A stretch of DNA of 64,000 bases from Methanomassiliicoccales archaeon (GTDB lineage Archaea > Thermoplasmatota > Thermoplasmata > Methanomassiliicoccales > UBA472), in assembly GCA_013415865.1 (NCBI GenBank), contig CP058896.1, positions 1,345,957-1,409,956 of the forward strand, in the 5' to 3' direction. Positions 2,464 through 19,926 of the stretch are shown here, one piece after another. Every line of letters begins with the position of its first letter. Position 1 is the stretch's first letter. A model generated the notes under the pieces. It saw only the letters and a program-made list of their open reading frames with translations. It ran no database searches and was not told the DNA's origin. Made by a program: the position numbers and the translations under genes.

Positions 2464-3054
2464 TCACCCCTTGGGAGGGACCAATAGCGAGCTTATCGCG
2501 ACCGCCATCGATACCTTAAGCCCATCGACGGCCAGGAAAGGAAGCACGCCGACCAATAACGCCTCGCTCAGGCCCATTCCCAGCATGGTCATCATATGGA
2601 ACACGCCGCATGCGTAGATGATGCCCACCGCCCCGGTCATGGCCATGGTCAGCCTCATAATGTCCAAATTTGTGCTTCTCTCTATGATGGTCCCTAGGAA
2701 CCATGAGGCAAGGACGAACCCTATCAGATAGCCCCCGGTCACGCCCATAAGCGCGGACAGACCGACCATCCCGCTGAACCATCCCAACGATGCACCTAGC
2801 CCAAGGTACATGCCCTGGGCCACTGCCCCATATCGTCCTAGGCATACCGCGCCGACCAGGACCACCAGGACCTGACCGGTGAAGGGAACCGGTGTGAAAG
2901 GAACATTGAAACGGATCTGTGCTGCCAGAGCGGTCAGGAAAGCAAAGAACAGCGCCCCCATTAGCTTCTCCATCAGGCCCGCCTCGCTCCTCCAATGGAA
3001 CAGACCCTCTGACGCCCTGCATCTCAATCGTTCATAGCCGTATGCGATGTTCAT
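2464..3054 (-). CDS. bioY: BioY-family biotin transporter S component
   Basis: Integral membrane substrate-binding (S) component of an energy-coupling-factor vitamin transporter; BioY binds biotin. The sequence shows the family hallmarks: FNVPFTPVPFTGQVL at the start of the core, LGASLGWFSGMVG, GGYLIGF, and about six hydrophobic spans. No EcfA/EcfT genes are adjacent, so it either uses shared ECF components elsewhere or works alone, as some BioY do. The first ATG is used here because an AT-rich box (AACTATATC on the minus strand, near 3085-3095) sits about 30 nt upstream; a second candidate start is Met28, where family similarity begins. Confidence 0.88.
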   Translation of the reverse strand: MNIAYGYERLRCRASEGLFHWRSEAGLMEKLMGALFFAFLTALAAQIRFNVPFTPVPFTGQVLVVLVGAVCLGRYGAVAQGMYLGLGASLGWFSGMVGLSALMGVTGGYLIGFVLASWFLGTIIERSTNLDIMRLTMAMTGAVGIIYACGVFHMMTMLGMGLSEALLVGVLPFLAVDGLKVSMAVAISSLLVPPKG

Positions 3055-3156
3055 CGTGTCTGTGAACCCAAAGGCGCTTGATATAGTTTATCACGGCCGC
3101 TTGAATGATGAGGGTCCGGCGCAACCCTTATTTTTGTCATATGCGATGCGAGGGGC

Positions 3157-3528
3157 ATGTTGGACTGGAAAGTGCTTGGTAAGAAGACGCTGCCCGTTGG
3201 TATACAGGATACCTGGGAATCGAGGATAAAGGAGCTGGCAGCAAAGAAGGAGGACGGAGAAAAGTTCCTTGCGCTGTTCCATAAGGCCGACATCACCTAT
3301 AAGTTCGATACGATACGGGAGCTCCACATATTCCATCTTCAAATGCCACCGACGACGAGCATGGACGAGCTCAACTACATGAAAGATTATATCCAGGCGT
3401 TAAGGAGGGCGGCCAGGTCGCCGATGGTCTCCCTCGAGGGAAAGGAACAGAAGAGCACGGTGGTTATCTCAGGGGATGAGATCGTCAACGAGTATGCCCT
3501 GCGTCATCCTGAGTATATGAAAAAATAA
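3157..3528 (+). CDS. Conserved hypothetical protein, 123 aa
   Basis: A small soluble protein with no family that I recognise. It is basic and helical in its first half (WESRIKELAAKKEDGEKFLALF), with a central hydrophobic strand (FDTIRELHIFHLQMP) and a C-terminal VVISGDEIVNEYALRHPEY segment. There is no signal peptide, membrane span or cysteine cluster. It stands alone on the plus strand between bioY and the trpD-like gene. An AT-rich stretch (CCTTATTTTTG) precedes the ATG by about 30 nt and could be its promoter. Codon use fits the surrounding chromosome. Confidence 0.6.
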   Translation: MLDWKVLGKKTLPVGIQDTWESRIKELAAKKEDGEKFLALFHKADITYKFDTIRELHIFHLQMPPTTSMDELNYMKDYIQALRRAARSPMVSLEGKEQKSTVVISGDEIVNEYALRHPEYMKK

Positions 3529-3549
3529 GGCATGGGCGCGACCGCGGTC

Positions 3550-4665
3550 TCACGCCGATACCTCAGAAATGATCTTTTGGAGCCTTTCGATCTTCTCGCT
3601 GGCATCACCGCTCTGCTGGTGCGAGACCCAGCTCATAAGCTTCTTCAACGCCCTTCCGGAATCGATGAGGTCACAGGCCTTGTGATACCCTTCGACCAGG
3701 TCCGCCGCATGTCCGGTTATGTAGAGGACAGGTGCAGCGTTCAGGCACACTATGTCCCTCCTGGACCCCTTGGCCTCTCCTGACAGGACACGGACCTGTT
3801 CGACCGCCTCGGCCTCCCTATTGAGCTTGCATAGAATGACGTTCTCTTCTGCCTGCTTTATCCCAAGGTCCTTGTATGAGACGGTAAAGGTATTCACCTC
3901 GCCATCGGAGCTCAGTTCCGCCACATATGTGGGCCCCAACGTCGAAAGCTCGTCCAGCCCCCGCCTCCCTTCAGCATCCGTTCCATGTACCACATAGGCG
4001 CGCTTGTATCCTATCTCCTTCATGGTCCTGACGACCGGCAGTAGCATATCTTTTGAGTAGACGCCCCTGACGCCATAGGTAGGCATGGCGGGGTTGGCCA
4101 ATGAACCGGCCATGTTCAGGACCGTACCGAACCTTATCTGCGACAGGATCCTTCCGAGCGCCTGGGGATGCACTTTGCTGCTCATCCCATTGAACATGCC
4201 TATACCTGCGGACTCTATGCTCCTCTTAACCACCTGCACATCACACTCGACATCGACCCCAAGGGCCTCGACGACATCGACGGTCCCGCACCTCGAGGTG
4301 ATCGCCCTAGCCCCATGCTTCGCCATGTAGATCCCGTCCGCGGCCGCTATGATGGATGCGGCGGTGGAGATGTTGAACGTCTTTATCGTGTCCATTCCGG
4401 TCCCGCAATTGTCCACAAGCGGTCCTGAGACCTCGGGCCTCACCTTCATGGTATCTATCTCATATATCGCCTCCCAGCTACCAGCCAGCTCCTCTGGTGT
4501 GGCGCCTTTTGCGGTCATCGCGGCCAAGAAGGCCCCTTGTTGGAGGTCTGGCTGAGAGTTGAGCAATACCTCTCTGAAGAGGTCCCTGGCCTCGGCCCTA
4601 GTAAGGTTCTTTCCTCTGATCAGCGCATCGACCTTGCTTCCAAAATACTTCAAGCTCTCTTCCAT
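3550..4665 (-). CDS. TrpD-like phosphoribosyltransferase (nucleoside phosphorylase / AnPRT fold), divergent active site
   Basis: It has the fold and length (371 aa) of anthranilate phosphoribosyltransferase. The PRPP loop reads CGTGMDTIKTFNIST, then MAKHGARAITSRCGTVD, then FGTVLNMAGSLANPA. True TrpD has GTGGD, KHGNR and LGPLxNPA; the Asn of KHGN and the Pro of GP contact anthranilate and are replaced here by Ala and Ser. No other trp gene is nearby. The enzyme therefore probably transfers ribose-5-phosphate to or from another aromatic or base substrate, or acts on nucleic acid as TrpD2 proteins do. It starts 9 nt after the alcohol dehydrogenase stop and is likely cotranscribed from the double-operator promoter upstream of that gene. 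Confidence 0.72.
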   Translation of the reverse strand: MEESLKYFGSKVDALIRGKNLTRAEARDLFREVLLNSQPDLQQGAFLAAMTAKGATPEELAGSWEAIYEIDTMKVRPEVSGPLVDNCGTGMDTIKTFNISTAASIIAAADGIYMAKHGARAITSRCGTVDVVEALGVDVECDVQVVKRSIESAGIGMFNGMSSKVHPQALGRILSQIRFGTVLNMAGSLANPAMPTYGVRGVYSKDMLLPVVRTMKEIGYKRAYVVHGTDAEGRRGLDELSTLGPTYVAELSSDGEVNTFTVSYKDLGIKQAEENVILCKLNREAEAVEQVRVLSGEAKGSRRDIVCLNAAPVLYITGHAADLVEGYHKACDLIDSGRALKKLMSWVSHQQSGDASEKIERLQKIISEVSA

Positions 4666-4674
4666 CTGAACACC

Positions 4675-5709
4675 TTAAAATCTTGTCACCACTGTCTTCA
4701 TCCCGATCCTTGCCTCTGACCTTACGAATGCCCTCGGCAGCTCCTCCAGAGAGATCTTCTCTGTGATGAGCCAATCCAGGTCCACCTCACCATCCATCAC
4801 CATCCGCACGGCCTCCCGGTCCTGCCTTGATGAGCAGCCATAGGCCCCCACCAGGGCGATTTCTTTGTAATGCAGACCTCTCACATCGAACGGGACCTCG
4901 TAGTTCCCTTTTTTCGGCCCAGAGAAGACCGATATCCTTCCCTGAGGGGCCATGAGCCTGAGCAACCAATTATCGACACGGACCTCGGGGGTCGCCATGA
5001 GGGCCACGTCCACCCCATCGCCTCCGGTCTCATCGATGACCGCCTCTACTATGTCCTCCTTGCCGGGGTCGATCATCCGGTCCACCAACATCCTAGGGAT
5101 GATGCTTCTCCTGCTCTCAAGGTGCTCGGTCATGATCACCTTTCCAACCCCTTTCGCCCTTGCCAATATTGCATGAAGGCACCCGATCGGCCCCCCTCCG
5201 AATATCAGCACCGTGTCACCGTTGCCAACTCTGGCAAGCTCTTGTCCGTTGATACAGCAGGCCAAAGGCTCCGCAAGGGAGACGGCAGCGGCATCGCTCC
5301 CTTCTGGCAAAGGGACGACCCCCCTTGCCATTATGGACTCTTTAGGGAGGGAGACCTTCTGTGCGAATCCCCCGTCCCTGTTGAACCCTAAGATCCCGAT
5401 GTGGAGGCATTGATTGTCTATCCCCCTTCTACAAGGCCTGCATTCCGAGCAAACTATCCCGGGCCATACCTGGACGAGCTGACCCTCCTTTAACTTTTCA
5501 GAATCAGAGATGGAGACCCTTCCGACGATCTCATGGCCGAGGATCCTGGGATAGATAAGGTCCTTATGACCGTTCGCGAGCATCTTGACATCGGTACCAC
5601 AGATCGCGCTGGCAACCACATCGATGACGATCCCGCCCTCAGGGAGGACAGGGTCGTCCATCTCCTCGACCCGGAGATCGTTCGGCCCATGCATGACCGC
5701 AGCCCGCAT
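4675..5709 (-). CDS. Zinc-dependent alcohol/threonine dehydrogenase family enzyme
   Basis: Medium-chain dehydrogenase of 344 aa. Catalytic zinc ligands are visible as CGTD (Cys38) and GHE (His59-Glu60); the structural zinc site is Cys87, Cys90, Cys93 and Cys101 (CSECRPCRRGIDNQC). The Rossmann motif is FGGGPIGC. The reading frame is open further upstream to 5808, but the start at 5709 is preferred: it begins MRAAVMHG as in the family, and a TATA element at 5733-5739 lies 25-30 nt upstream, implying a nearly leaderless mRNA. The substrate is a polyol, threonine or secondary alcohol; it cannot be fixed from sequence. It is regulated by the paired palindromes described separately and followed by the trpD-like gene. 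Confidence 0.82.
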   Translation of the reverse strand: MRAAVMHGPNDLRVEEMDDPVLPEGGIVIDVVASAICGTDVKMLANGHKDLIYPRILGHEIVGRVSISDSEKLKEGQLVQVWPGIVCSECRPCRRGIDNQCLHIGILGFNRDGGFAQKVSLPKESIMARGVVPLPEGSDAAAVSLAEPLACCINGQELARVGNGDTVLIFGGGPIGCLHAILARAKGVGKVIMTEHLESRRSIIPRMLVDRMIDPGKEDIVEAVIDETGGDGVDVALMATPEVRVDNWLLRLMAPQGRISVFSGPKKGNYEVPFDVRGLHYKEIALVGAYGCSSRQDREAVRMVMDGEVDLDWLITEKISLEELPRAFVRSEARIGMKTVVTRF

Positions 5710-5713
5710 CTGA

Positions 5714-5758
5714 GTTGGATATAACATCCAATTATATAAATTGGATGAATCATCCAAT
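5714..5758 (-). promoter_or_regulatory. Double palindromic operator flanking a TATA box
   Basis: Four copies of one heptamer in alternating orientation: GTTGGAT (5714-5720), ATCCAAT (5726-5732), ATTGGAT (5740-5746), ATCCAAT (5752-5758). Together they form two palindromes, RTTGGAT-N5-ATCCAAT, whose centres are 26 bp apart. The gap between them (5733-5739, TATATAA) is a TATA element for the minus-strand dehydrogenase gene that starts at 5709. A dimeric regulator bound at either site would block TBP/TFB or polymerase. The regulator itself is not identifiable in the window. Confidence 0.75.
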
Positions 5759-5804
5759 CCATGAGACCATACTGCCTGACTTCTTGTGAGGGTCCTGGGC
5801 CATC

Positions 5805-6470
5805 TCACCTTGATAAAGGCCTATCATAGATATTCAGTTTCTTGCCATTCGCCATGGCCTTTCTCTTCCATTTCCTATTGTGGGACATAAGGTAGATCAG
5901 CTCGGACATAGGTCTACTTGCCATGAGGTCCGCCGCCTCGTCAGGTACGTCCTGACCATCGGCCAAGGCGTCAGTGGCGAGCTCGAGGGCCTGGGCGGCC
6001 GACCTCCCTTTGCTTCCCACCTCAGCCAAGGTCTTCCCATCAAGCGACATCCCCATCGGGAATCTAAGGCCGCCAAGATATCGGATTCCCACCGATGAAC
6101 AAAAATTTTTGATGATGGCCAGAGACACGTCCAGGTCCCGTGGGTCAGGAGAGTCGCAGTTCCCGATGGCAATGAGCGATGGTCTTTGCCATCCCACCGG
6201 TCGTTCGTCCCTTAAGAGCTCCATCCACCTGATGACGTCCGATGGGAGGGAGTCCATCAAAAGCGGATAACTGAGCACCAAAATATCAGATGTGGCCACA
6301 TCTTCCATCATCCCATCATAGCTCTCTTTGGACCAGATGTCATCCACCAGGTAATGGATGCTGACCGAAAATCCCTTATTCTTCAGGAGGTCCAGCATGT
6401 ACGCTCCCAATGTCGATGATACAGACCCCTCAGTCCTCGGACATCCGACCAGCAAAGTGGCCTTGGTCAT
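5805..6470 (-). CDS. Flavodoxin-fold NAD(P)H/FMN-dependent oxidoreductase
   Basis: A 221-residue alpha/beta protein that starts with the FMN-binding strand-loop of the NADPH-dependent FMN reductase / iron-sulfur flavoprotein superfamily (LLVGCPRTEGSVSS). It has the second signature around VLSYPLLMDSLPS and a C-terminal helical extension rich in Lys and Arg. It lacks the cysteine motif of its upstream neighbour. Its ATG overlaps the stop of the 6467-7042 gene (ATGA), so the two are translationally coupled and may form a hetero-oligomer. The partner redox pathway is unknown. Confidence 0.65.
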   Translation of the reverse strand: MTKATLLVGCPRTEGSVSSTLGAYMLDLLKNKGFSVSIHYLVDDIWSKESYDGMMEDVATSDILVLSYPLLMDSLPSDVIRWMELLRDERPVGWQRPSLIAIGNCDSPDPRDLDVSLAIIKNFCSSVGIRYLGGLRFPMGMSLDGKTLAEVGSKGRSAAQALELATDALADGQDVPDEAADLMASRPMSELIYLMSHNRKWKRKAMANGKKLNIYDRPLSR

Positions 6471-7042
6471 CTGGCCACCTTCATGTTCATGATAGTGGAT
6501 TCGACAAGCTCGCGCACGTTCTTTTCAGGTTCCCCTTTCCAGAGGACAAGGCTTTTTGAATGTCCGCTCCTAAGGGTCCTTCCATTCTGCCTGATGAGCA
6601 TCCTGTACGTCTCCGTCTCCTCACGGTCGATCTCATCGCATACGGCTATCCCAAGCATACTTGGATAGCGATGATATCTGGCCATCCGTTCGACGCCATC
6701 CGCCTCCGCGATGAGATACGGCATCAATATACCGGCCAGACGGTCCAAAGCCCTTTTGATGAGCGATGAATGACCACCGAACGTCATTCTAGATATCAAT
6801 ACCACGATATCCGAGGACATCCAGGCCCGCATGATCTCCATGCCATCATCGTTGATACCACAGATGCCAGGTGACAAGGTCCAACAATCTCTGCAGCCGG
6901 TACAGGGCATCAACTTTCTATCGCCCAATCTGATCATCTCATGGTGGACCTTCCTTTCTGTGAGGATCTCCTCAAGTACTGAAGCAACCCGCTTGGATGC
7001 ATCATCAGGTCCTATGGAACCATCAAGGATCAAAACCTTCAT
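6467..7042 (-). CDS. Iron-sulfur flavoprotein / NADPH-dependent FMN reductase-like protein
   Basis: A 191-residue flavodoxin-fold protein. The N-terminus MKVLILDGS leads into the FMN phosphate loop, and residues PCTGCRDCW resemble the compact cysteine cluster of archaeal iron-sulfur flavoproteins, which bind [4Fe-4S] and FMN. The hydrophobic strand SSDIVVLISRMTFGG is the usual second FMN contact. It is the first gene of a coupled pair (4-nt overlap with 5805-6470) and lies upstream of the dehydrogenase and trpD-like genes on the same strand, although those have their own promoter. Confidence 0.7.
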   Translation of the reverse strand: MKVLILDGSIGPDDASKRVASVLEEILTERKVHHEMIRLGDRKLMPCTGCRDCWTLSPGICGINDDGMEIMRAWMSSDIVVLISRMTFGGHSSLIKRALDRLAGILMPYLIAEADGVERMARYHRYPSMLGIAVCDEIDREETETYRMLIRQNGRTLRSGHSKSLVLWKGEPEKNVRELVESTIMNMKVAR

Positions 7043-7146
7043 CCTGACCGGTCGGAAATAGAACGCTCAAGGACATAACCGTTGGCATCATGGCACGATG
7101 GGTAAAGCATCTCGGTGCCACGAAAGATTGATAATGCCAAGGCACG

Positions 7147-9015
7147 GTGGGCATGGCATTGAGACGCTGTCGTATGATGTCAGGGGCGTTGTTGACCGTA
7201 GCGGTGGTCTTTCTGATAATGGTCGCCCCAATCACGGTCCATATGCCCTTCTCAGGACATTCGTTCAAGGGGGGACAGGCGACCGACGACGATGGATTGT
7301 CTTTTATCGCTGACGACACCGAGGACGGACCAAGCTCATCGGACACTGTGGACGTAAATATTCCACCTCCCCGGTCAAACAGTCTCACGGGTCTGACCAT
7401 GACGATAGATTTCAGCTATATCGATCGAAACGGCCTTTGCACGATCCCATGCGCCGGTGCCCTTGTTATGCTGACCATGATCGGCATAGAAGGGAAGGAG
7501 GATGTGGCCATCTCCTATACAGACTATGAGGGAAGGGCGGTCTTCCACGGCCTTACAAATGGGACATATGTGGCCAACATCTTTACAAAGGACGAAGGGT
7601 ACGTCCAGGTGGTGGGCCCCGAGGGCCAATTATATTCCTGGTCGACCGAGCCCGTCCGTGCAAGCTCTGATGTCATCGTCACATTATCAATAGATGACGA
7701 TTCCAGAGCGGCCTGGTCGTCTTTTACCTCGGTCCGATCAGGTGCGGCCTGGCTTAAGGACAATGTAGACTGGGAGAGAAAGATGGTGACAATTGTATGG
7801 CCTACGGAGGGATTGGCCCATTGTCATGGCGATGAGATCCACTTGCCAGGACCGATGGACTTCTCATCAGATGCCTGGGTCCCAAAGGTCGTGCTCCATG
7901 AGTATGGTCATGCGGTACATTATGCTCTAAGGGGTGACAGCTTCCCCGATTATGAAGGTCCAGAAAAACATTACATCGACAGCGAGACCAATGCAAGGTT
8001 CGCCTTTCTCGAGGGATGGGCCGAGTTCTTCTCGGCCGCGGCGATGGGAGACCCGACATTCGGTGGGTCCTGCATCGAAATGACCATGTTCGCCGACAGC
8101 CTTAGCTCAAATGGTGATTATGGCGATTGGGATGGGAACGAGGTCGAGGGGGCGGTAGCGAACGTCCTATGGGATATTTTTGACGGCATCTCGGAGGACG
8201 ACCACCCTCTCTATCTTCCGTCGGCAAAGGGAGATCAAGTGGACCGTCGATTGCAGGACCTATGGGAAATAATGGTCTCTGAAAGACCAGAGGAGATGAT
8301 GGATATCTGGAGGGCATGGGATAATAAGACATCCTCTTTGGTGGATATCTTCAGGTATGCCAGGTTCGACGTGGACCTTGTAAGGCCGTCGAACCCGACC
8401 GGTTTCGTCTCAAGCCATAAGGTAATGGCCTCATCAAAGGACTCAACGATCAGCATCGCGCTGATTGGTGCAGAGGACGACAGCTCGATGCCCATATGGT
8501 ATTCCATCATCTGGGATGACCGCCCTGATACTGAGCCTGACGACATCGTCGACATATGTTCGGACAGTTTGACCAGCCCGTCCTTGCCTCCAGGTATCTG
8601 GTACCTCCATGTCAGGTCGATAGACTATTCTGGGAACGTGGCCAATGGCACCTTGCACCTTGGACCTTTTCTTATCGAAGAAGGGGCCACTGATATATCG
8701 GACAGCGATGGCCATAGCGGTCTCAACGGCACGCTTCTGATGGACATCCTTATTTTGATCGGGACCATCATGATGGCGGTCATCCTAATCATCATCGTGA
8801 TGAAGATGGTAAGAAGACCCCAGGAGGGCGATGTAGGCATGACCGATTGCCAAAGATCCAGCATCAATATCCATCCCTATACGCATCGTTACGGACCTCG
8901 TGATATCTATTCCATTGACCATCAGATCGGATGCGATGAGAACTTCTGTCCCTATTGTGGGAAAAAGGACCTTCATGGTCTGTTCTGCGCGTACTGTGGA
9001 AAAAGGCTGCGATGA
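7147..9015 (+). CDS. Membrane-anchored zinc metallopeptidase with C-terminal zinc ribbon
   Basis: A 622-residue protein with an N-terminal signal/anchor (hydrophobic about residues 12-32), an extracellular beta-rich region (carboxypeptidase-regulatory-like, near CAGALVMLTM and GRAVFHGLTNGTY), a gluzincin active site HEYGH (residues 251-255) followed by EGWAEFF (from 289, third zinc ligand Glu), a second beta domain (fibronectin-like, around PSNPTGFVSS), a C-terminal membrane span (about 540-562) and a cytoplasmic tail ending in a double CxxC zinc ribbon (CPYCGKKDLHGLFCAYCGK). It is probably an outward-facing protease tethered at both ends. A second Met at residue 3 is an alternative start. 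The substrate is unknown. Confidence 0.72.
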   Translation: MGMALRRCRMMSGALLTVAVVFLIMVAPITVHMPFSGHSFKGGQATDDDGLSFIADDTEDGPSSSDTVDVNIPPPRSNSLTGLTMTIDFSYIDRNGLCTIPCAGALVMLTMIGIEGKEDVAISYTDYEGRAVFHGLTNGTYVANIFTKDEGYVQVVGPEGQLYSWSTEPVRASSDVIVTLSIDDDSRAAWSSFTSVRSGAAWLKDNVDWERKMVTIVWPTEGLAHCHGDEIHLPGPMDFSSDAWVPKVVLHEYGHAVHYALRGDSFPDYEGPEKHYIDSETNARFAFLEGWAEFFSAAAMGDPTFGGSCIEMTMFADSLSSNGDYGDWDGNEVEGAVANVLWDIFDGISEDDHPLYLPSAKGDQVDRRLQDLWEIMVSERPEEMMDIWRAWDNKTSSLVDIFRYARFDVDLVRPSNPTGFVSSHKVMASSKDSTISIALIGAEDDSSMPIWYSIIWDDRPDTEPDDIVDICSDSLTSPSLPPGIWYLHVRSIDYSGNVANGTLHLGPFLIEEGATDISDSDGHSGLNGTLLMDILILIGTIMMAVILIIIVMKMVRRPQEGDVGMTDCQRSSINIHPYTHRYGPRDIYSIDHQIGCDENFCPYCGKKDLHGLFCAYCGKRLR

Positions 9016-11804: not shown

Positions 11805-14471
11805 ATGAGAAATGAATATTTATTATGGGCAAAGGCGGAGAAAAATAATCCTAACAATTACCATCCTCTTCTTTATCATTTAATAGATTCCTCATCTGTA
11901 GCCTTTGAAATGTGGGAGAGGTGTATATGCAGGTCCACTCGAACTAAAATTTCAAAATTTTTAAATCTAAATGAAAATGAAGCGAGGGCATGGGTAGCTT
12001 TTCTAACAGGTTGCCATGATATAGGTAAAGCAACGCCAGCATTTCAAAAAAAAATTGAAACACTAAAAAGGGAATTAGAAGACAATGGTTTAATTTTTTT
12101 TAATGGAAATCGTCATCATAGCTTACTATCACAGCATATTGTTCAATCACATTTTTCAGGAATAATCGAAAATAATCTTTTAGATATATTTTCAGCTGCG
12201 ATAGGAGCTCACCACGGCATTTATCTTTCGATCGGAGACCTTCAATATATTGATTATAATGATTTAGGAGACAATTCCTGGAGAGAGATAAGATCTTCAT
12301 TTTTGCAAAATCTCTCTGATTTATATTTAGGTGATTGCATCTCGAAACCACATATTCTTGAGCAAGATTTCACAAACCCCTTTTTGATTATTATCAGCGG
12401 TATAATTTCGGTAGCTGATTGGATAGCATCATCTGAAGAATTCTTTCCATACAAACAAGAAATACTATCTCCGAAAGATTATGCTGAAAAATCCAAAATC
12501 CAAGCCAAGAATGCCTTGACTGCACTAAATTGGCCTGAAATCCAAGAATTTCATGTACCAAATACTTTTCGTGAGTTGTTCCCTAAAATTGAGACGCCTT
12601 TCCCTTTGCAGGTCGAGGTGGAAAACATATCAAATATGCTGAGTAGACCAGGCATGGTTATTATCGAAGCCCCGATGGGGGAGGGAAAGACTGAAGCAGC
12701 ATTATATTTAATGGAGAACTGGAATTACAGAACAGGAAATTCTGGTCTATATCTTGCTTTACCAACGATGGCCACTGCAAATCAAATGTTCCAAAGACTC
12801 CAAGATTATTTTTTAAGTATACCGATCACCATAAAACGAAATATTGCATTGGTCCACGGTCACGCCGTCATATCAAATCGCCACCTAACCCTATCAGTGA
12901 CAAATATTCTCGATGAAATTGAAGATTCTCTTTCCATATCAGAGTGGTTTACATATCGGAAGCGGGGTTTATTATCTCCATTTGGAGCAGGTACTATTGA
13001 TCAGACATTTTTAGGTGTGATGCCAACCAAGCACTTTTTTGTTCGATTATTTGGGATGGCTGGAAAGACCGTAATTTTTGATGAGGTCCACGCCTACGAT
13101 GTTTACATGTCTCAAATTTTGGAAAGGGAGTTGGAATGGTTATCCGCTTTAGGATCAAATGTAATAATTTTATCCGCGACTCTCCCTAAGGAACGTTTAA
13201 GCAATCTTATAGCTGCGTATGGGGGTGAAACACACGACTTTTTATATGAAAAATATCCCAGATTAACTATAGTATTGGAAAGTCACACGCAGATGCATCA
13301 TTTCCCTTCTGCTTCTGAGTTAGGAATTAGAAATACATTAAACATCAGTCTTCAATGGTTACCAGATGATATAGAGAAAATAGTTGAAAAAGCTCTACAG
13401 CAAATATCATCCGGTGGATTCATAGCGGTATTATGCAACACTGTGAAGTATGCCCAATCAGTTTATCAGGCCTTTAAATTAGTGATTGAGAAAGATATTG
13501 AAATTTACTTGTTGCATTCGCGTTTTCCTTATGAAGATCGTGCCAACCGTGAAAAAATCTGTTTATCTTTGTATGGTAAAAATGAGAGAGATGCTAATCG
13601 AAAATGTATATTAGTCACTACTCAAATCGTTGAACAAAGCCTTGACTTAGATTTCGATGTGATAATTACACAGCTGGCACCAATTGATTTATTATTACAA
13701 AGATTTGGGAGATTGCATCGCCATGAAAGAAAAAACCGTCCTAAAATCCTTAGAGAGCCGAGAGCATTCATCATCAAACCGCTCGTTAATTACAAAGGGA
13801 AAATTGATTTTGGGGACACTTCGAAAATATATTCTAATTATGTACTCATGCGTACCATGGCCGTGCTCAATAGCCTATCTAAAATAATTATTCCAAACGA
13901 TATTGACAATCTTGTAGAGGCTGTGTACGGTAAAATAGCACCAAAAATGCCTTTGGAATGGTGTGAAGATTTTGAAGTTGCCGAGAAGGAATATTTAAAG
14001 GTAAGGGAAGAGTATAAAGCATTGGCCGAGAAAAATATTATTTTTCCTCCAGACTATCGCGATTTAATATCATTCCCATTGGAATATTTAGAGGAGGACA
14101 ACCAAAATATACATCAATCCCTACAGGCTTTGACAAGAATTAGTTCACCATCAATCAACTTAATTTGTCTGTTTAAAATCGGAACTAATGTGTACGTAGA
14201 TCGTTTCGGTGAAATTTTAGCAGATATTAATGACACCAGCGACAACAATGTCGCTCGATTGCTGTTGCGAGCCGTTTCAATAAATAATCCATATGTGATA
14301 TGCCATTTTAACAAGAATGTAGAAACTCCTGATTCATGGAAAAAAAATGTAATTTTAAAAAATCATAAGCCCCTCATTTTTTCTGAAAACGAAATGAAAG
14401 GCAGATTTACTTATAGGTGCGAAGGCGCGTTCATTATACTCGATGAGGATTTAGGAATACTAATAGAATAG
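11805..14471 (+). CDS. cas3: CRISPR-associated helicase-nuclease Cas3 (type I-E)
   Basis: An 888-residue HD-helicase fusion that degrades DNA recruited by Cascade. The N-terminal HD nuclease shows His71-Asp72 (GCHDIGKATPAF), His105 and His136-His137. The SF2 helicase has Walker A APMGEGKTEA (about residue 290), the DEVH box in VIFDEVHAYDVY (about 425), and motif VI LLLQRFGRLHRH. Length and order match I-E Cas3. It is the first gene of a plus-strand operon, 11 nt before cas8e, and its sequence is far more A+T-rich than the flanking chromosome. Both catalytic domains appear intact. Confidence 0.95.
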   Translation: MRNEYLLWAKAEKNNPNNYHPLLYHLIDSSSVAFEMWERCICRSTRTKISKFLNLNENEARAWVAFLTGCHDIGKATPAFQKKIETLKRELEDNGLIFFNGNRHHSLLSQHIVQSHFSGIIENNLLDIFSAAIGAHHGIYLSIGDLQYIDYNDLGDNSWREIRSSFLQNLSDLYLGDCISKPHILEQDFTNPFLIIISGIISVADWIASSEEFFPYKQEILSPKDYAEKSKIQAKNALTALNWPEIQEFHVPNTFRELFPKIETPFPLQVEVENISNMLSRPGMVIIEAPMGEGKTEAALYLMENWNYRTGNSGLYLALPTMATANQMFQRLQDYFLSIPITIKRNIALVHGHAVISNRHLTLSVTNILDEIEDSLSISEWFTYRKRGLLSPFGAGTIDQTFLGVMPTKHFFVRLFGMAGKTVIFDEVHAYDVYMSQILERELEWLSALGSNVIILSATLPKERLSNLIAAYGGETHDFLYEKYPRLTIVLESHTQMHHFPSASELGIRNTLNISLQWLPDDIEKIVEKALQQISSGGFIAVLCNTVKYAQSVYQAFKLVIEKDIEIYLLHSRFPYEDRANREKICLSLYGKNERDANRKCILVTTQIVEQSLDLDFDVIITQLAPIDLLLQRFGRLHRHERKNRPKILREPRAFIIKPLVNYKGKIDFGDTSKIYSNYVLMRTMAVLNSLSKIIIPNDIDNLVEAVYGKIAPKMPLEWCEDFEVAEKEYLKVREEYKALAEKNIIFPPDYRDLISFPLEYLEEDNQNIHQSLQALTRISSPSINLICLFKIGTNVYVDRFGEILADINDTSDNNVARLLLRAVSINNPYVICHFNKNVETPDSWKKNVILKNHKPLIFSENEMKGRFTYRCEGAFIILDEDLGILIE

Positions 14472-14482
14472 AAGGAGGACCA

Positions 14483-16039
14483 TTGTTGCAGGCCAGTTAT
14501 AATCTCGTTCATGAAAGTTGGATACCTTGTGAGTTATTAGACGGTAAAATAAAATGTGTTAGTTTAGAAGAAATTTTTAACTTTCATGAACAGATATTCG
14601 ATATAAGGCACCATTCCCCATTGGTCAGAATGGCCGTTTATCGTCTGTTGATTACAATCGTAGAAAGATGTGAGGAACCTAGAGATACATTAATGTTGTC
14701 TAAAATCTGGAAAAACGGTCTTGATATTAAAAAGATTATTGACTATCTTAACACTTGGAAACATCGCTTCGACATCTTCGATGAAGAGCGTCCATTTTAT
14801 CAAGTTCCTCAATTCAGAGTAGGTTCACCTACTACAATACGGAAGTTAATGCATGAGAAGGCAAGCCATAATAACGCAACTTTATTCGATCACAGTTTTG
14901 ATGAAGATATTTTTTCAATAAGTCCCGCCGAGTCTGCCTTATTACTATTAGCAAACCAATCTTATGCGGTAGGAGGGGGAAAAAGCTCTACAGCCGATAA
15001 TTTCAGGGACGCACCTTTGGTTGGAAAGGTACCCTTGGTATTAAAAGGGAAAAATCTTGGAGAAACTATCAGACTGAATTTAATCAATTACGACTCTAAG
15101 CAACCAAAGGTATTATTGACAGGGGCCTCGGGGTTTAGTGATTTTGATCTTCCCGCATGGGAGGCAGATCAACCCTCGGCAGCCAGTACGAAGAGAGAAG
15201 TTAGAGGGTTGCTGGATTATTATACCTGGCAGTCGAGAGCTATACGATTACTGCCGGAATTAGGTAATGGTAATATCTCAGTAAGTAGAATGTATTTTTC
15301 CCAGGGGGTTGAACTAGGTGACTTGTCAAAACAAATTATTAGAGACCCTATGGTACCATATGTTTACAACAAGAAGTCAGGCATAAGGCCGGAAAAATTA
15401 GATATCTCAAAATCCCAATGGCGTTCTCTGCCAGCTTTATTGCACTCTGTGCCCGGTCAAATTATAATGCCGAAGACAATCGATACTGTTAGTCTATTAA
15501 TAAATAGAGGGATATTAAAAAAAGATGCTAGATTAGGTCTTGAAATTCTAGGTCTTTATAACAATGAGGCAAAAATTAATCAATGGTCCCAATCGATTAT
15601 ACCTTTACCTTCGAAATTTATTGTGGATAATTCGCTCTTATCTGAAATGGACCTTGCAATAAAAAATTGTGAGGCTGCAGGCAATATATTGAGGAAAGCA
15701 ATAGACAATTTAACTATTAATAATGGTTCGGATGCTAATCATAAACAAATTAAATCATCGAGGGATAGCTTGAATGTGGAAAGGGTTTATTGGTCTAGAT
15801 TGGAGAGTCAATTCTATGAATTGATGGATCAATTAGCCAGTGAAGAATTGCCAAAGGGAGCCCATCAACGGAATGAGATGCTAAAAAAATGGTTTGTTGA
15901 AACAGTCCATAAAAATGCAAAAGAATGTTTTGAAGAATATTCAAGGAGTTTGGAAGTCAATCCAAAGAATCTCAAGGCTTTGGTGACAACAAGATTGAAG
16001 TTTTATAAAAATTTAAAATTGGAAATAAAAAATATTTGA
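14483..16039 (+). CDS. casA: Cascade large subunit Cas8e (Cse1/CasA)
   Basis: A 518-residue large subunit that recognises the PAM and helps recruit Cas3. It opens with NLVHESWIPCELLDGK (family start "NLxxxPWIPV") and contains FDIRHHSPLVRMAVYRLL, FDIFDEERPFYQVPQF and LLLLANQSYAVGGGKSS, all in the usual Cse1 order. It starts with TTG, supported by the strong ribosome-binding site GGAGG at 14474-14478. It sits between cas3 and cse2, as in other I-E operons. Confidence 0.92.
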   Translation: MLQASYNLVHESWIPCELLDGKIKCVSLEEIFNFHEQIFDIRHHSPLVRMAVYRLLITIVERCEEPRDTLMLSKIWKNGLDIKKIIDYLNTWKHRFDIFDEERPFYQVPQFRVGSPTTIRKLMHEKASHNNATLFDHSFDEDIFSISPAESALLLLANQSYAVGGGKSSTADNFRDAPLVGKVPLVLKGKNLGETIRLNLINYDSKQPKVLLTGASGFSDFDLPAWEADQPSAASTKREVRGLLDYYTWQSRAIRLLPELGNGNISVSRMYFSQGVELGDLSKQIIRDPMVPYVYNKKSGIRPEKLDISKSQWRSLPALLHSVPGQIIMPKTIDTVSLLINRGILKKDARLGLEILGLYNNEAKINQWSQSIIPLPSKFIVDNSLLSEMDLAIKNCEAAGNILRKAIDNLTINNGSDANHKQIKSSRDSLNVERVYWSRLESQFYELMDQLASEELPKGAHQRNEMLKKWFVETVHKNAKECFEEYSRSLEVNPKNLKALVTTRLKFYKNLKLEIKNI

Positions 16040-16050
16040 GGTGAGTCGCT

Positions 16051-16554
16051 TTGGAAAAAAAATTCAAAGATGAAAGGTTGTTGTTTGTAGATTTTTTAAT
16101 ATCATTGAAGGAACAAGAAAAACGTAGCCATTTAGCAACTTTACGGAAAGGTACAAAAGGGAATCCAGAAAATATGCCTCAACTTTATCCAATAATATTA
16201 CCTCAATTGCCACCTGGGATGTCTAAATGGAGAGAGAAAGTATATTTTGAGATAGCAGCGTTATTCAGCATGCATCCAGAAATCTCAGACCACGGAAATT
16301 TGGGAAATACGTTTCGCGAATTACAACAAAAGAAAGAAAGCATGAATATAGAAAAAAGATTTGTAGCAATTTTGCGTGCTCACAAGGATGATTTATATGG
16401 CCGTCTTAGGCAGGCCATATCTTTGGCCAAATCTGAAGATATCGGAATAAATTGGTTACAATTATTGGAGGATCTAGAAAATTGGAATGATCGGGACAGT
16501 TATGTGCAAAAAAATTGGGCAAAATCATTTTGGGGGAATGCCAGTTCTTATTGA
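16051..16554 (+). CDS. casB: Cascade small subunit Cse2 (CasB)
   Basis: A 167-residue helical protein with the Cse2 signature near residue 30 (HLATLRKGTKGNPENMP) and the C-terminal WLQLLEDLENWNDRDSYVQKNWAKSFWG that is typical of CasB. It holds the non-target strand in the R-loop as a dimer. It starts with TTG eleven nt after cas8e, with GAGGTGAG upstream as a ribosome-binding site. Position and length fit; sequence similarity in this family is usually low, so operon context adds much to the call. Confidence 0.9.
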   Translation: MEKKFKDERLLFVDFLISLKEQEKRSHLATLRKGTKGNPENMPQLYPIILPQLPPGMSKWREKVYFEIAALFSMHPEISDHGNLGNTFRELQQKKESMNIEKRFVAILRAHKDDLYGRLRQAISLAKSEDIGINWLQLLEDLENWNDRDSYVQKNWAKSFWGNASSY

Positions 16555-16581
16555 TGATTTGAAATTGAGGAGAATGATGCG

Positions 16582-17739
16582 ATGTTTATAGAAATGCACA
16601 TTGTACAGAATTTTGGGCCAAGCTGTCTGAACAGAGATGATACCAACTCCCCTAAAGATTGTGAGTTTGGTGGATATCGTAGGGCTCGTATATCAAGTCA
16701 ATGTTTTAAGAGAGCAATTCGTATGAATGATGTATTTAAGAACACCTTGAAAAACAATCTTGCAGTCAGAACTAAATTGTTACCAAAAAAATTGACGGAG
16801 AAGTTAATTGAAAATGGAAGAGACCCAAGTTCCGCTTCAAAATTGGCGCAAGAAATAGTCAAAAACATATTTGGTGAACTTGATAAGGGAAAGAGTAAAA
16901 CACTTCTGTTTATAAGTAATGAAGAGATAGATTTATTATTAAATATGATAAATGAAAATTGGGACGAACTCGTAAAATTGATGAATGAAAATTCATTAAA
17001 AGAAAATAAGAATGAGAAGAATAATGAAAAAAATTCTTTTGATAAGAAATGCTCCGATCTGATTAAAAAAAGTGAAATCGTCAAAGTATCTCCTGATATT
17101 GCGTTGTTTGGTAGAATGGTCGCAGAAGGAGCGTCTTGGAATGTTGATGCCGCCTGCCAGATTGCTCATGCCATATCTACAAACATCATGAATATGGAAA
17201 TGGATTTCTATGCAGCGGTGGACGATTTACAATCAAAAGAAGATAATGGCGCAGGCATGATGGGAACAATCGATTTCACCAGCGCCTGTTATTATCGTTA
17301 CAGTGCCATCAACATCCCTCAACTAAAAGAGAATTTAAGAGGAGATATTGAACTTTGTAAAGCAACATTGGAGGCCTTTATTAAAGCATCTGTGATAGCT
17401 GTCCCATCTGGGAAACAAACATCCATGGCCGCTCATGACCCACCCAGTCTCGTTTTGATAATTGTTAGAGAGGAAGGGCAACCCACGTCCCTAACAAACG
17501 CATTTGTGAACCCTGTCCATCCAAGTGAAGAAAAATCATTGATCGATCTCAGTATTGATCAATTAGATAAATATGCTGGAAATATTTATGATGTTTATGG
17601 CAAAGATGGGATTAGATTTATTGGTGCATTGGCACTGGGAGACCCCCTACTATACAATCTAATAAGGCACGGAGCAATTAAAGAACCAAATATTGACAGT
17701 TTGTTGAGAAAAGTGGTTGGGGCAATCAAATGGGCGTAA
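16582..17739 (+). CDS. casC: Cascade backbone subunit Cas7e (Cse4/CasC)
   Basis: A 385-residue RAMP protein, six copies of which coat the crRNA. The N-terminus carries FGPSCLNRDDTNSPKDCEFGGYRRARISSQCFKRA with the conserved lysines and arginines, and the C-terminal half has the catalytic-fold motif SPDIALFGRMVAE and VAVPSGKQTSMAAHDPP. Residues about 135-156 form an Asn/Lys/Glu-rich low-complexity insertion, likely a surface loop and probably a result of the A+T-rich base composition. It overlaps cas5e by 10 nt. Confidence 0.93.
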   Translation: MFIEMHIVQNFGPSCLNRDDTNSPKDCEFGGYRRARISSQCFKRAIRMNDVFKNTLKNNLAVRTKLLPKKLTEKLIENGRDPSSASKLAQEIVKNIFGELDKGKSKTLLFISNEEIDLLLNMINENWDELVKLMNENSLKENKNEKNNEKNSFDKKCSDLIKKSEIVKVSPDIALFGRMVAEGASWNVDAACQIAHAISTNIMNMEMDFYAAVDDLQSKEDNGAGMMGTIDFTSACYYRYSAINIPQLKENLRGDIELCKATLEAFIKASVIAVPSGKQTSMAAHDPPSLVLIIVREEGQPTSLTNAFVNPVHPSEEKSLIDLSIDQLDKYAGNIYDVYGKDGIRFIGALALGDPLLYNLIRHGAIKEPNIDSLLRKVVGAIKWA

Positions 17740-18380
17740 TTATCTTAAGGCTTGAAGGTCCGATGCAATCTTGGGGGACCTATAGCCACTTTACCGAGAG
17801 AGATACTGGCATCGAACCTTCAAAAAGCGGGGTCATTGGCATATTATGTGCTGCCCTTGGACGTCCTAGAAATGCCAATCTTGAAGATTTATGTTCTTTA
17901 CGAATGACTGTATTGACGGTTAGGGAAGGGAAGATTGCCAGGGATTTTCATACAACATTAAATGTACCTAAGGCAAATAATCCAAATAGAAAAGATACTG
18001 TCATTTCCAATCGTTATTATCTAGCCGATGCCTGTTTCTTAGTTTTCTTAGAAGGGGATGATGCCTTAGTAAATGAATTGCTTAGAGCGTTAAAGAATCC
18101 CAAATGGGGGATTTATTTGGGAAGAAAATCATTCATACCAAGTGCCCCCGTTCTTTTTGAAGATAAAATTTGGTCAGGCGGAGTTGAACCCGTCGTAGAA
18201 TTCGCGTTAGAGAAATTAAATTTAAAAGATAAAAAAAAGGTAAGAATAATAATTGAATCATCATCTGGAGATGGAGAGCCGCGTTGGGATGTCCCGCTAT
18301 CTTTTGCTAAACGCCAATTTAAAGTCAGATATGTGCGTAATGAATGGAGATATCTCTGTGAAGGCAAGGTGAATAAATGA
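17730..18380 (+). CDS. casD: Cascade subunit Cas5e (CasD)
   Basis: A 216-residue RAMP protein capping the 5' handle of the crRNA. The start LRLEGPMQSWGTYSHFTERDTGIEPSKSGVIGILCAALG is the Cas5e signature. A second conserved stretch is YLADACFLVFLEG and YLGRKSFIPSAPV. It overlaps cas7e upstream and cas6e downstream by 4 nt (ATGA), showing translational coupling throughout the Cascade genes. Confidence 0.93.
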   Translation: MGVIILRLEGPMQSWGTYSHFTERDTGIEPSKSGVIGILCAALGRPRNANLEDLCSLRMTVLTVREGKIARDFHTTLNVPKANNPNRKDTVISNRYYLADACFLVFLEGDDALVNELLRALKNPKWGIYLGRKSFIPSAPVLFEDKIWSGGVEPVVEFALEKLNLKDKKKVRIIIESSSGDGEPRWDVPLSFAKRQFKVRYVRNEWRYLCEGKVNK

Positions 18381-19006
18381 AGTTATTTTTCTCTCAGCTT
18401 TGTTTAAATCCTCGCTGTATGCAGGTGCTTAAGGAAATGGATAATCGATATGAATTACATCGGACCCTAATGAAAGCATTCCCCGAGGCAGAAAAAGGCG
18501 GGCCGGGCAGAGTACTCTTCAGGGTGGAAGGCACTGGAAAATTTGGTGAATGTTCAATTTTGATTCAATCTGAAAAGTGCCCGAACTGGAACAAGATTAC
18601 AGTTCCAGATGATTATTTTTCAATCCCACCTAGGTTTAAAGAAGTAGAATTGTACTTCAACAAGGGAGAGAAATATCGTTATAGAATTTTAGCAAATCCA
18701 ACCATAAAAAGAAATGGAACTCGTCTCGGAATCATTGACGATTCTGAGCAGAGCAATTGGTTAAAACGCAAAGCTGAAAATGGCGGTTTTGAGGTAATTA
18801 GTGAATTGCATACACCCATGGGCTTTATACGAGGCCAAAAAGGGGAAAAACCGATTACTTTAAGCTTCTACGGTGTTCAATTTGATGGTATATTGAGGGT
18901 CCGAGAACCCCAAACATTTATGGCAACTTTAAAATCTGGTGTGGGAACTGCGAAAGGGTTAGGGTTTGGTTTATTGTCTTTAGCCAGGGTGAATGGTAAA
19001 GTATGA
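18377..19006 (+). CDS. casE: crRNA-processing endoribonuclease Cas6e (CasE/Cse3)
   Basis: A 209-residue protein that cleaves the repeat RNA at the base of its hairpin, leaving an 8-nt 5' handle. The catalytic His is visible in DNRYELHRTLMKAFP (His28; His26 in well-studied homologues), followed by GGPGRVLFRVE and the C-terminal glycine-rich loop GVGTAKGLGFGLLSLARV. The predicted cut in the repeat would give a handle GUGAACCN. It overlaps cas1 by 4 nt. Confidence 0.93.
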   Translation: MKLFFSQLCLNPRCMQVLKEMDNRYELHRTLMKAFPEAEKGGPGRVLFRVEGTGKFGECSILIQSEKCPNWNKITVPDDYFSIPPRFKEVELYFNKGEKYRYRILANPTIKRNGTRLGIIDDSEQSNWLKRKAENGGFEVISELHTPMGFIRGQKGEKPITLSFYGVQFDGILRVREPQTFMATLKSGVGTAKGLGFGLLSLARVNGKV

Positions 19007-19926
19007 GGATTCGAGATCTGCACGAGTTGCCCAAATTTCGTGATGGTCTTAGTTATTTATATCTGGAACATTGCCGTATAGACCAATCAGAGAATGCCAT
19101 AGCTTGCAGAGATTTGGAAGGTTTGGTTAAGATTCCCTGCGCATCATTAAGCCTAATAATGCTTGGGCCAGGAACAAGCATAACCCATGAGGCGATTAAG
19201 ACAATTGCAGATAATGGTTGTTTGGTCATTTGGTGTGGGGAAGAGGGGGTTCGATTCTATGCTCATGGTTCAGGAGAGACACGCTCCTCAAGAAGGTTAC
19301 TATTCCAAGCGGAGATGTGTATCGATCCAATAAAAAGGCTTGAGGTCGTCAAACGCATGTATCAGATAAGATTCAAAGGGGAGGAAATCGATGGTCTGAC
19401 AGTGGATGAATTAAGGGGAAAAGAGGGCATCAGGGTAAGAGGTGCATATTATAGAGCAAGTAAAAAATATGGTGTTGAATGGTATGGTAGAAATTATGAA
19501 AGGAAGAACTGGAGCAATGCAGATCCAGTAAATAGGGCTCTTTCAGCAGCTAATTCATGCCTGTACGGTCTATGTCATGCAGCTATAGTTTCCTTGGGAT
19601 ACTCACCGGGATTAGGATTCATCCACACAGGGAAACAATTATCGTTTGTATATGATGTGGCAGATTTATACAAGACTGATTTGTGCATCCCAATTGCATT
19701 TGAAAAAGCTGTAAATCCAGGTCCAACCTTGGAGAGGGATGTAAGAATACGTATGAGAGATTTAATTCGTGAGAATCATTTATTATCCAGAATAGTAGAT
19801 GATATTGAAACCATTCTTGATATCGGAGACGATGAAGAATTATCAGAAAACGATTATGATTCAGATGCAGCTCTCCCTGGGCCTCTATGGAATTATGAAT
19901 CAGTAAAGACGGGCAAACCATGTTGA
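19003..19926 (+). CDS. cas1: CRISPR integrase Cas1 (type I-E)
   Basis: A 307-residue integrase that inserts new spacers with Cas2. The metal-binding triad is present at Glu141 (GKEGIRVRG), His208 (FIHTGKQ) and Asp221 (VADLYKTD), the same numbering as in the E. coli I-E enzyme. The C-terminal tail is rich in acidic residues (DIGDDEELSENDYDSDAA). The gene overlaps cas2 by 7 nt, which would keep the two subunits balanced. Nothing suggests loss of function, so adaptation should be active. Confidence 0.95.
   Translation: MRIRDLHELPKFRDGLSYLYLEHCRIDQSENAIACRDLEGLVKIPCASLSLIMLGPGTSITHEAIKTIADNGCLVIWCGEEGVRFYAHGSGETRSSRRLLFQAEMCIDPIKRLEVVKRMYQIRFKGEEIDGLTVDELRGKEGIRVRGAYYRASKKYGVEWYGRNYERKNWSNADPVNRALSAANSCLYGLCHAAIVSLGYSPGLGFIHTGKQLSFVYDVADLYKTDLCIPIAFEKAVNPGPTLERDVRIRMRDLIRENHLLSRIVDDIETILDIGDDEELSENDYDSDAALPGPLWNYESVKTGKPC

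Follow-up and report, generated by a model that had tools for sequence, protein, structure and literature searches.

In bacteria, riboswitches govern most B12 genes, and the control of archaeal B12 genes is, to our knowledge, largely open. Rodionov and colleagues, writing in J Biol Chem in 2003, are reported to have proposed an archaeal 'CBL-box' bound by a hypothetical B12 regulator, so that the idea of a DNA-level archaeal B12 regulon already dates from then. Methanomassiliicoccales were described after that proposal. Here, we report a 17-bp palindrome from this order which, like the CBL-box as reported, is a DNA signal rather than a riboswitch, lies upstream of B12 biosynthesis and transport genes and has a hypothetical regulator; it differs in its restriction, within the phylum searched, to Methanomassiliicoccales, and we liken the two in concept, not in consensus. 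Its gene set (cbi/cob, btuFCD, cobalt transport and ribonucleotide reductase) is also that of the bacterial cobalamin riboswitch (Rfam RF00174 and relatives). In contrast to the riboswitch, however, the cis element is a DNA palindrome placed over the core promoter, and Rfam searches returned no riboswitch at the gathering score in loci L020-L024, L076 and L083, none at E<=1 in window positions 3000-8000, and neither a riboswitch nor any other regulatory RNA in the regulon loci of the home genome (G000). The Nur (nickel) box of the Fur family is likewise a 6-5-6 palindrome with TTG...CAA ends and a metal-linked regulon, but the core bases of our motif are GAT/ATC and Fur is absent from several site-rich genomes. 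Archaeal ThiN-domain thiamine repressors, the subject of a title cited in PMC8305020, are similar to the factor proposed here in being archaeal protein repressors tied to a cofactor pathway and different in that the cofactor is another one.

The motif was noticed in the window, a 64,000-nucleotide stretch of the home genome, as a 45-bp element at 5714-5758 (GTTGGATATAACATCCAATTATATAAATTGGATGAATCATCCAAT). Direct reading of the sequence revealed two perfect TTGGAT-N5-ATCCAA palindromes with a start-to-start distance of 26 bp. The predicted proximal operator at 5714-5732 (GTTGGATATAACATCCAAT, GTTGGAT-ATAAC-ATCCAAT) lies between the TATA box and the start codon of the dehydrogenase gene, and the predicted distal operator at 5740-5758 (ATTGGATGAATCATCCAAT, ATTGGAT-GAATC-ATCCAAT) adjoins the TATA box on its upstream side and covers the BRE position. 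Between them, the dehydrogenase promoter carries its TATA box on the minus strand at 5732-5740 (TTTATATAA). On the plus strand this reads TATATAA at 5733-5739, with its centre at 5736 exactly midway between the palindromes, as the original prediction had stated. Read along the minus strand, the order is palindrome, TTTATATAA, palindrome, five bases and ATG (5709). The palindromes thus overlap either BRE/TATA or the TATA-to-start interval, as core-promoter operators do, and they are the only copies without mismatch in the 64-kb window. With 27 bp between TATA centre and ATG, archaeal promoter geometry predicts a leaderless or nearly leaderless dehydrogenase mRNA starting at or next to the ATG.

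Downstream of the element, the minus strand encodes a zinc-dependent medium-chain dehydrogenase of 344 aa (4675..5709), whose homologs support a start at ATG 5709 and not in the longer frame from 5808, and, after a gap of about 10 bp, a TrpD-like phosphoribosyltransferase paralog of 371 aa (3550..4665) as the second gene of the operon. Elsewhere in the window, a plus-strand gene run at 11805-19926 begins with an 888-aa, Cas3-like HD/DEAD helicase and is probably a CRISPR-Cas type I operon.

A search for further copies, suggested along with the original prediction, yielded nine exact palindromes in the home genome (1.82 Mb, one contig) and none of the reversed-pattern control, against a chance expectation of 0.09 (zero order) to 0.32 (first order) calculated from window composition. 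The refuting outcome named with that prediction, a genome lacking other copies, thus did not occur. Across the order, the motif was present in 55 of 61 genomes with 294 copies, compared to a single reversed-pattern match; G025, G028, G031 and G054 are among the genomes that lack it. No copies were found in 23 sampled genomes from other orders of the same class, and the remaining members of the phylum showed the motif at background only, several of these matches being the anticodon arm of tRNA-Ser (TTGGATTGCTAATCCAA). Tandem copies among 84,980 species genomes came mainly from Methanomassiliicoccales, together with a few actinobacteria and two other records. The actinobacterial copies (L125, L140-L143), tandem TTGGATYGNCGATCCAA-like palindromes spaced 30-35 bp, have a GC-rich centre and apparently represent an unrelated operator. 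Sites with two mismatches were near background (60 versus 30 in the control) and, apart from passing mentions, were left out of the analysis. A symmetric variant, ATGGAT-N5-ATCCAT, occurs twice in the home genome, at L025 4022 (G000:C1:194621) and at L026 3977 (G000:C1:222576), the latter upstream of a corrinoid-protein-like ORF (3267-3899). Since the same variant serves as the distal site in the dehydrogenase promoter of genome G049, these two may belong to the regulon as weaker sites.

Pooling 184 distinct sites gave the consensus A-R-TTGGAT-G-WWW-C-ATCCAA-Y-T. Symmetric preferences thereby extend beyond the searched bases, with A-R before TTGGAT, G/T after it and A/T in the middle three positions, so that the full box is approximately aRTTGGATG-WWW-CATCCAAYt. 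Its half-sites would lie one helical turn apart, a spacing that fits a winged-helix homodimer. A gene begins no more than 200 bp away from 178 of 212 distinct sites, mostly at 10-60 bp. The palindromes are far from chance expectation, real, strongly conserved and, as the genes behind them show, functionally coherent.

The nine sites of the home genome are spread over seven places. Besides the two sites at the dehydrogenase-trpD-like operon (5714-5758 of the window), two sites 34 bp apart lie between the divergent siroheme synthase/hemA and cbiT-cbiL-cbiF-cbiG operons, and single sites precede cobT, the btuFCD-cobD-cbiB-cbiZ-cobS-cobY cluster, cobQ (fused to a cysteine-rich domain) and a gene for a secreted beta-propeller protein that is followed by DUF4430 and CbiQ-type ECF transporter genes. 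The ninth site is an uncertain member; set in AT-rich DNA, with methanol methyltransferase mtaCB 537 bp downstream of it, it may be non-functional. At this locus (L022; G000:C1:587700-598700), the mtaC-like corrinoid protein gene adjoining mtaB (3679-4458, minus strand) contains a mid-gene in-frame TAG (CTCTGCTAGAAGAACATG). As members of the order use TAG for pyrrolysine, this is probably a pyrrolysine codon.

Sites in the other genomes additionally lie ahead of cbiA, cobN, cbiM, Fur genes and the genes for dockerin-repeat btuF-like proteins, a ribonucleotide reductase, an amino-acid/amine permease, a CfbC-like NifH/NifD fusion and the radical-SAM enzyme CbpB. A conserved palindrome is thus found upstream of both B12 synthesis and B12 uptake genes in several genomes, and the theme common to its targets is cobamide and cobalt, which the original prediction lacked. 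Because some targets in other families (the permease, CbpB and Fur) do not belong to B12 biosynthesis, the signal could be cobalt or the wider corrinoid status instead of cobamide itself. The palindrome precedes CbpB, a radical-SAM peptide maturase, in three genomes (L111 6189-7613, scored by TIGR04163 'cobopeptide', and its homologs L081 6077-7549 and L089 4443-5912), which ties CbpB to the B12/cobalt regulon.

A single dehydrogenase ortholog was detected in each of 34 of the 61 genomes, in families f1, f3, f4 and f6; none was found in f2 and f5 among these genomes. The trpD-like gene came next on the same strand in all 30 loci inspected, and a site with at most one mismatch lay within 110 bp of the dehydrogenase ATG in 29 of them, the G024 locus having none. 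Overall, the dehydrogenase promoters contained 44 sites in 4,500 positions, compared to 0 in the other 110,568 positions of the same loci. Four layouts were observed: twin sites 26 bp apart with the TATA box between them in the genus of the home genome; twin sites about 66-74 bp apart flanking an A/T-rich TATA-like stretch in family f6; one site just after TATA; and one site just before TATA (G004, G005). The twin layout around one TATA box, which had been called rare, is indeed rare but not unique, as it recurs with wider spacing at the same operon in f6. In the congeners G001 and G002, both palindromes, the 26-bp spacing and the TATA region are kept while the upstream flank is not alignable, and TTTAWATAA or TTTAAATAT is retained at the TATA position in G001, G002, G004 and G005. 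Genome-wide recurrence, order-wide conservation, core-promoter position and invariant gene order together lend strong support to the assignment of the pair as operators of the dehydrogenase and trpD-like genes.

Of the two enzymes, the dehydrogenase belongs to the zinc MDR proteins; its nearest named relatives are threonine 3-dehydrogenases, scyllo-inosose dehydrogenase and other polyol dehydrogenases, and its scores fall well short of all NCBIfam cut-offs. The second gene passes the model for TrpD (anthranilate phosphoribosyltransferase) with 275 bits against a cut-off of 199. In TrpD, KHGNR marks the acceptor site and further motifs are those for phosphoribosyl diphosphate. The operon paralogs have KHGAR in place of KHGNR (seven of seven compared) and GTGMD in place of GTGG, and keep the remaining phosphoribosyl-diphosphate motifs. 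A canonical trpD is located elsewhere in the home genome (G000:C1:347141) and in each compared genome with the dehydrogenase-trpD pair. KHGAR and the separate canonical gene rule out that the second gene is the genome's tryptophan trpD; it is a paralog, a point that also goes beyond the original prediction. Judging from its motifs, we take it to be an active phosphoribosyltransferase that would use another acceptor, and its place in the B12 regulon suggests a role in cobamide assembly or salvage.

We consider it very probable that the palindromes are operators of a homodimeric winged-helix-type factor that runs an order-wide cobamide/cobalt regulon and represses the dehydrogenase-trpD promoter; we infer dimeric binding, repression rather than activation, and a cobamide or cobalt signal. 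One dimer would sit over the BRE side of TATA and another in the TATA-to-start interval, and both together would exclude TBP/TFB and RNA polymerase. Shortage of cobamide (or cobalt) would then release the factor and switch on the dehydrogenase and trpD-like genes along with the cbi, cob and btu genes. Occupancy on either side of TATA would most simply mean repression, and two sites a tighter version of one. The dimeric regulator of the original prediction is consistent with these data, and its tight repression is suggested by geometry. Were the factor instead an activator recruiting TBP/TFB at low cobamide, the distal site would be well placed, since BRE and the DNA just before it are where archaeal activators bind, and G004 and G005 keep only this site. 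Most dehydrogenase loci, however, have a site between TATA and ATG (13-19 bp from the ATG), where a bound factor should block polymerase, and order-wide most sites centre 10-60 bp from the start codon, which makes activation improbable. That the palindromes are structural (a cruciform, terminator or repeat element) is hardly credible: they are perfect inverted repeats between two genes, but sites occur at promoters of functionally related genes and abut TATA boxes, further bases in the flanks and centre are conserved symmetrically, and no copies were found elsewhere in 110 kb of dehydrogenase loci.

A metalloregulator sensing cobalt (or nickel) rather than cobamide, which B12 genes would follow as the main cobalt sink, is possible, though on balance we regard it as unlikely. 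Sites before CbiM-type cobalt transporters, the Fur-CbiM pair of G049, the ECF CbiQ-type transporter and CobN are in its favour, as is the similar TTG-N-CAA, 6-5-6 layout of the Nur box. Most sites, on the other hand, are at genes for the corrin ring, the nucleotide loop and corrinoid uptake, and the Fur protein is not the common regulator, as no Fur match was obtained in the site-rich genomes G023, G029, G032, G044, G053 and G060, which have 6-11 palindrome copies each. A Fur gene is itself a target in G035 and G049: the palindrome is at the start of Fur-family genes at L110 5994-6449 (G035) and at L035 1058-1513 (G049, followed by cbiM), possibly forming a regulatory cascade for cobalt uptake.

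Several other regulator candidates were likewise set aside. The dual-AsnC/Lrp protein divergent from a site in the home genome has no full-length relative in G060 and G044 (9-11 sites), and the conserved wHTH protein L234 is also present in motif-less genomes, so that its profile is uninformative. Fusions of a SAM methyltransferase and an ArsR-type HTH (L197 2872-4014 and L199 14699-15826) have a palindrome 25-150 bp upstream and adjoin btuF-like genes in some f2 genomes; they are patchily distributed, with close relatives mainly in f2 and f6, and are apparently targets. Small ArsR proteins are of several unrelated types with no site nearby. A weak lead is an ArsR-type HTH protein with a C-terminal V4R-like domain (L231 952-1701; G000:C1 near 858020), found in the three motif-rich genomes compared (orthologs in G029 and G060) and as a diverged copy in motif-less G025. 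V4R scored 30.8 bits against a cut-off of 31 in the ortholog L224, and the protein is possibly a tetrapyrrole-sensing regulator. Neither for archaeal B12 regulators nor for the palindrome sequence did the literature searched offer anything usable.

Tentatively, and with less than even confidence, we propose that a new protein repressor governs cobamide metabolism throughout the order and that the dehydrogenase/TrpD pair catalyses a hitherto unrecognised step in cobamide synthesis or salvage in the families that have it (f1, f3, f4 and f6, not f2 and f5); the pair might, for instance, supply a phosphoribosyl or side-chain precursor. The order-wide 17-bp motif offers a direct handle on the regulator and assigns the dehydrogenase and the TrpD paralog to the B12 pathway. 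For methylotrophic methanogens, which rely on corrinoid methyltransferases in their energy metabolism, it defines a B12/cobalt regulon.
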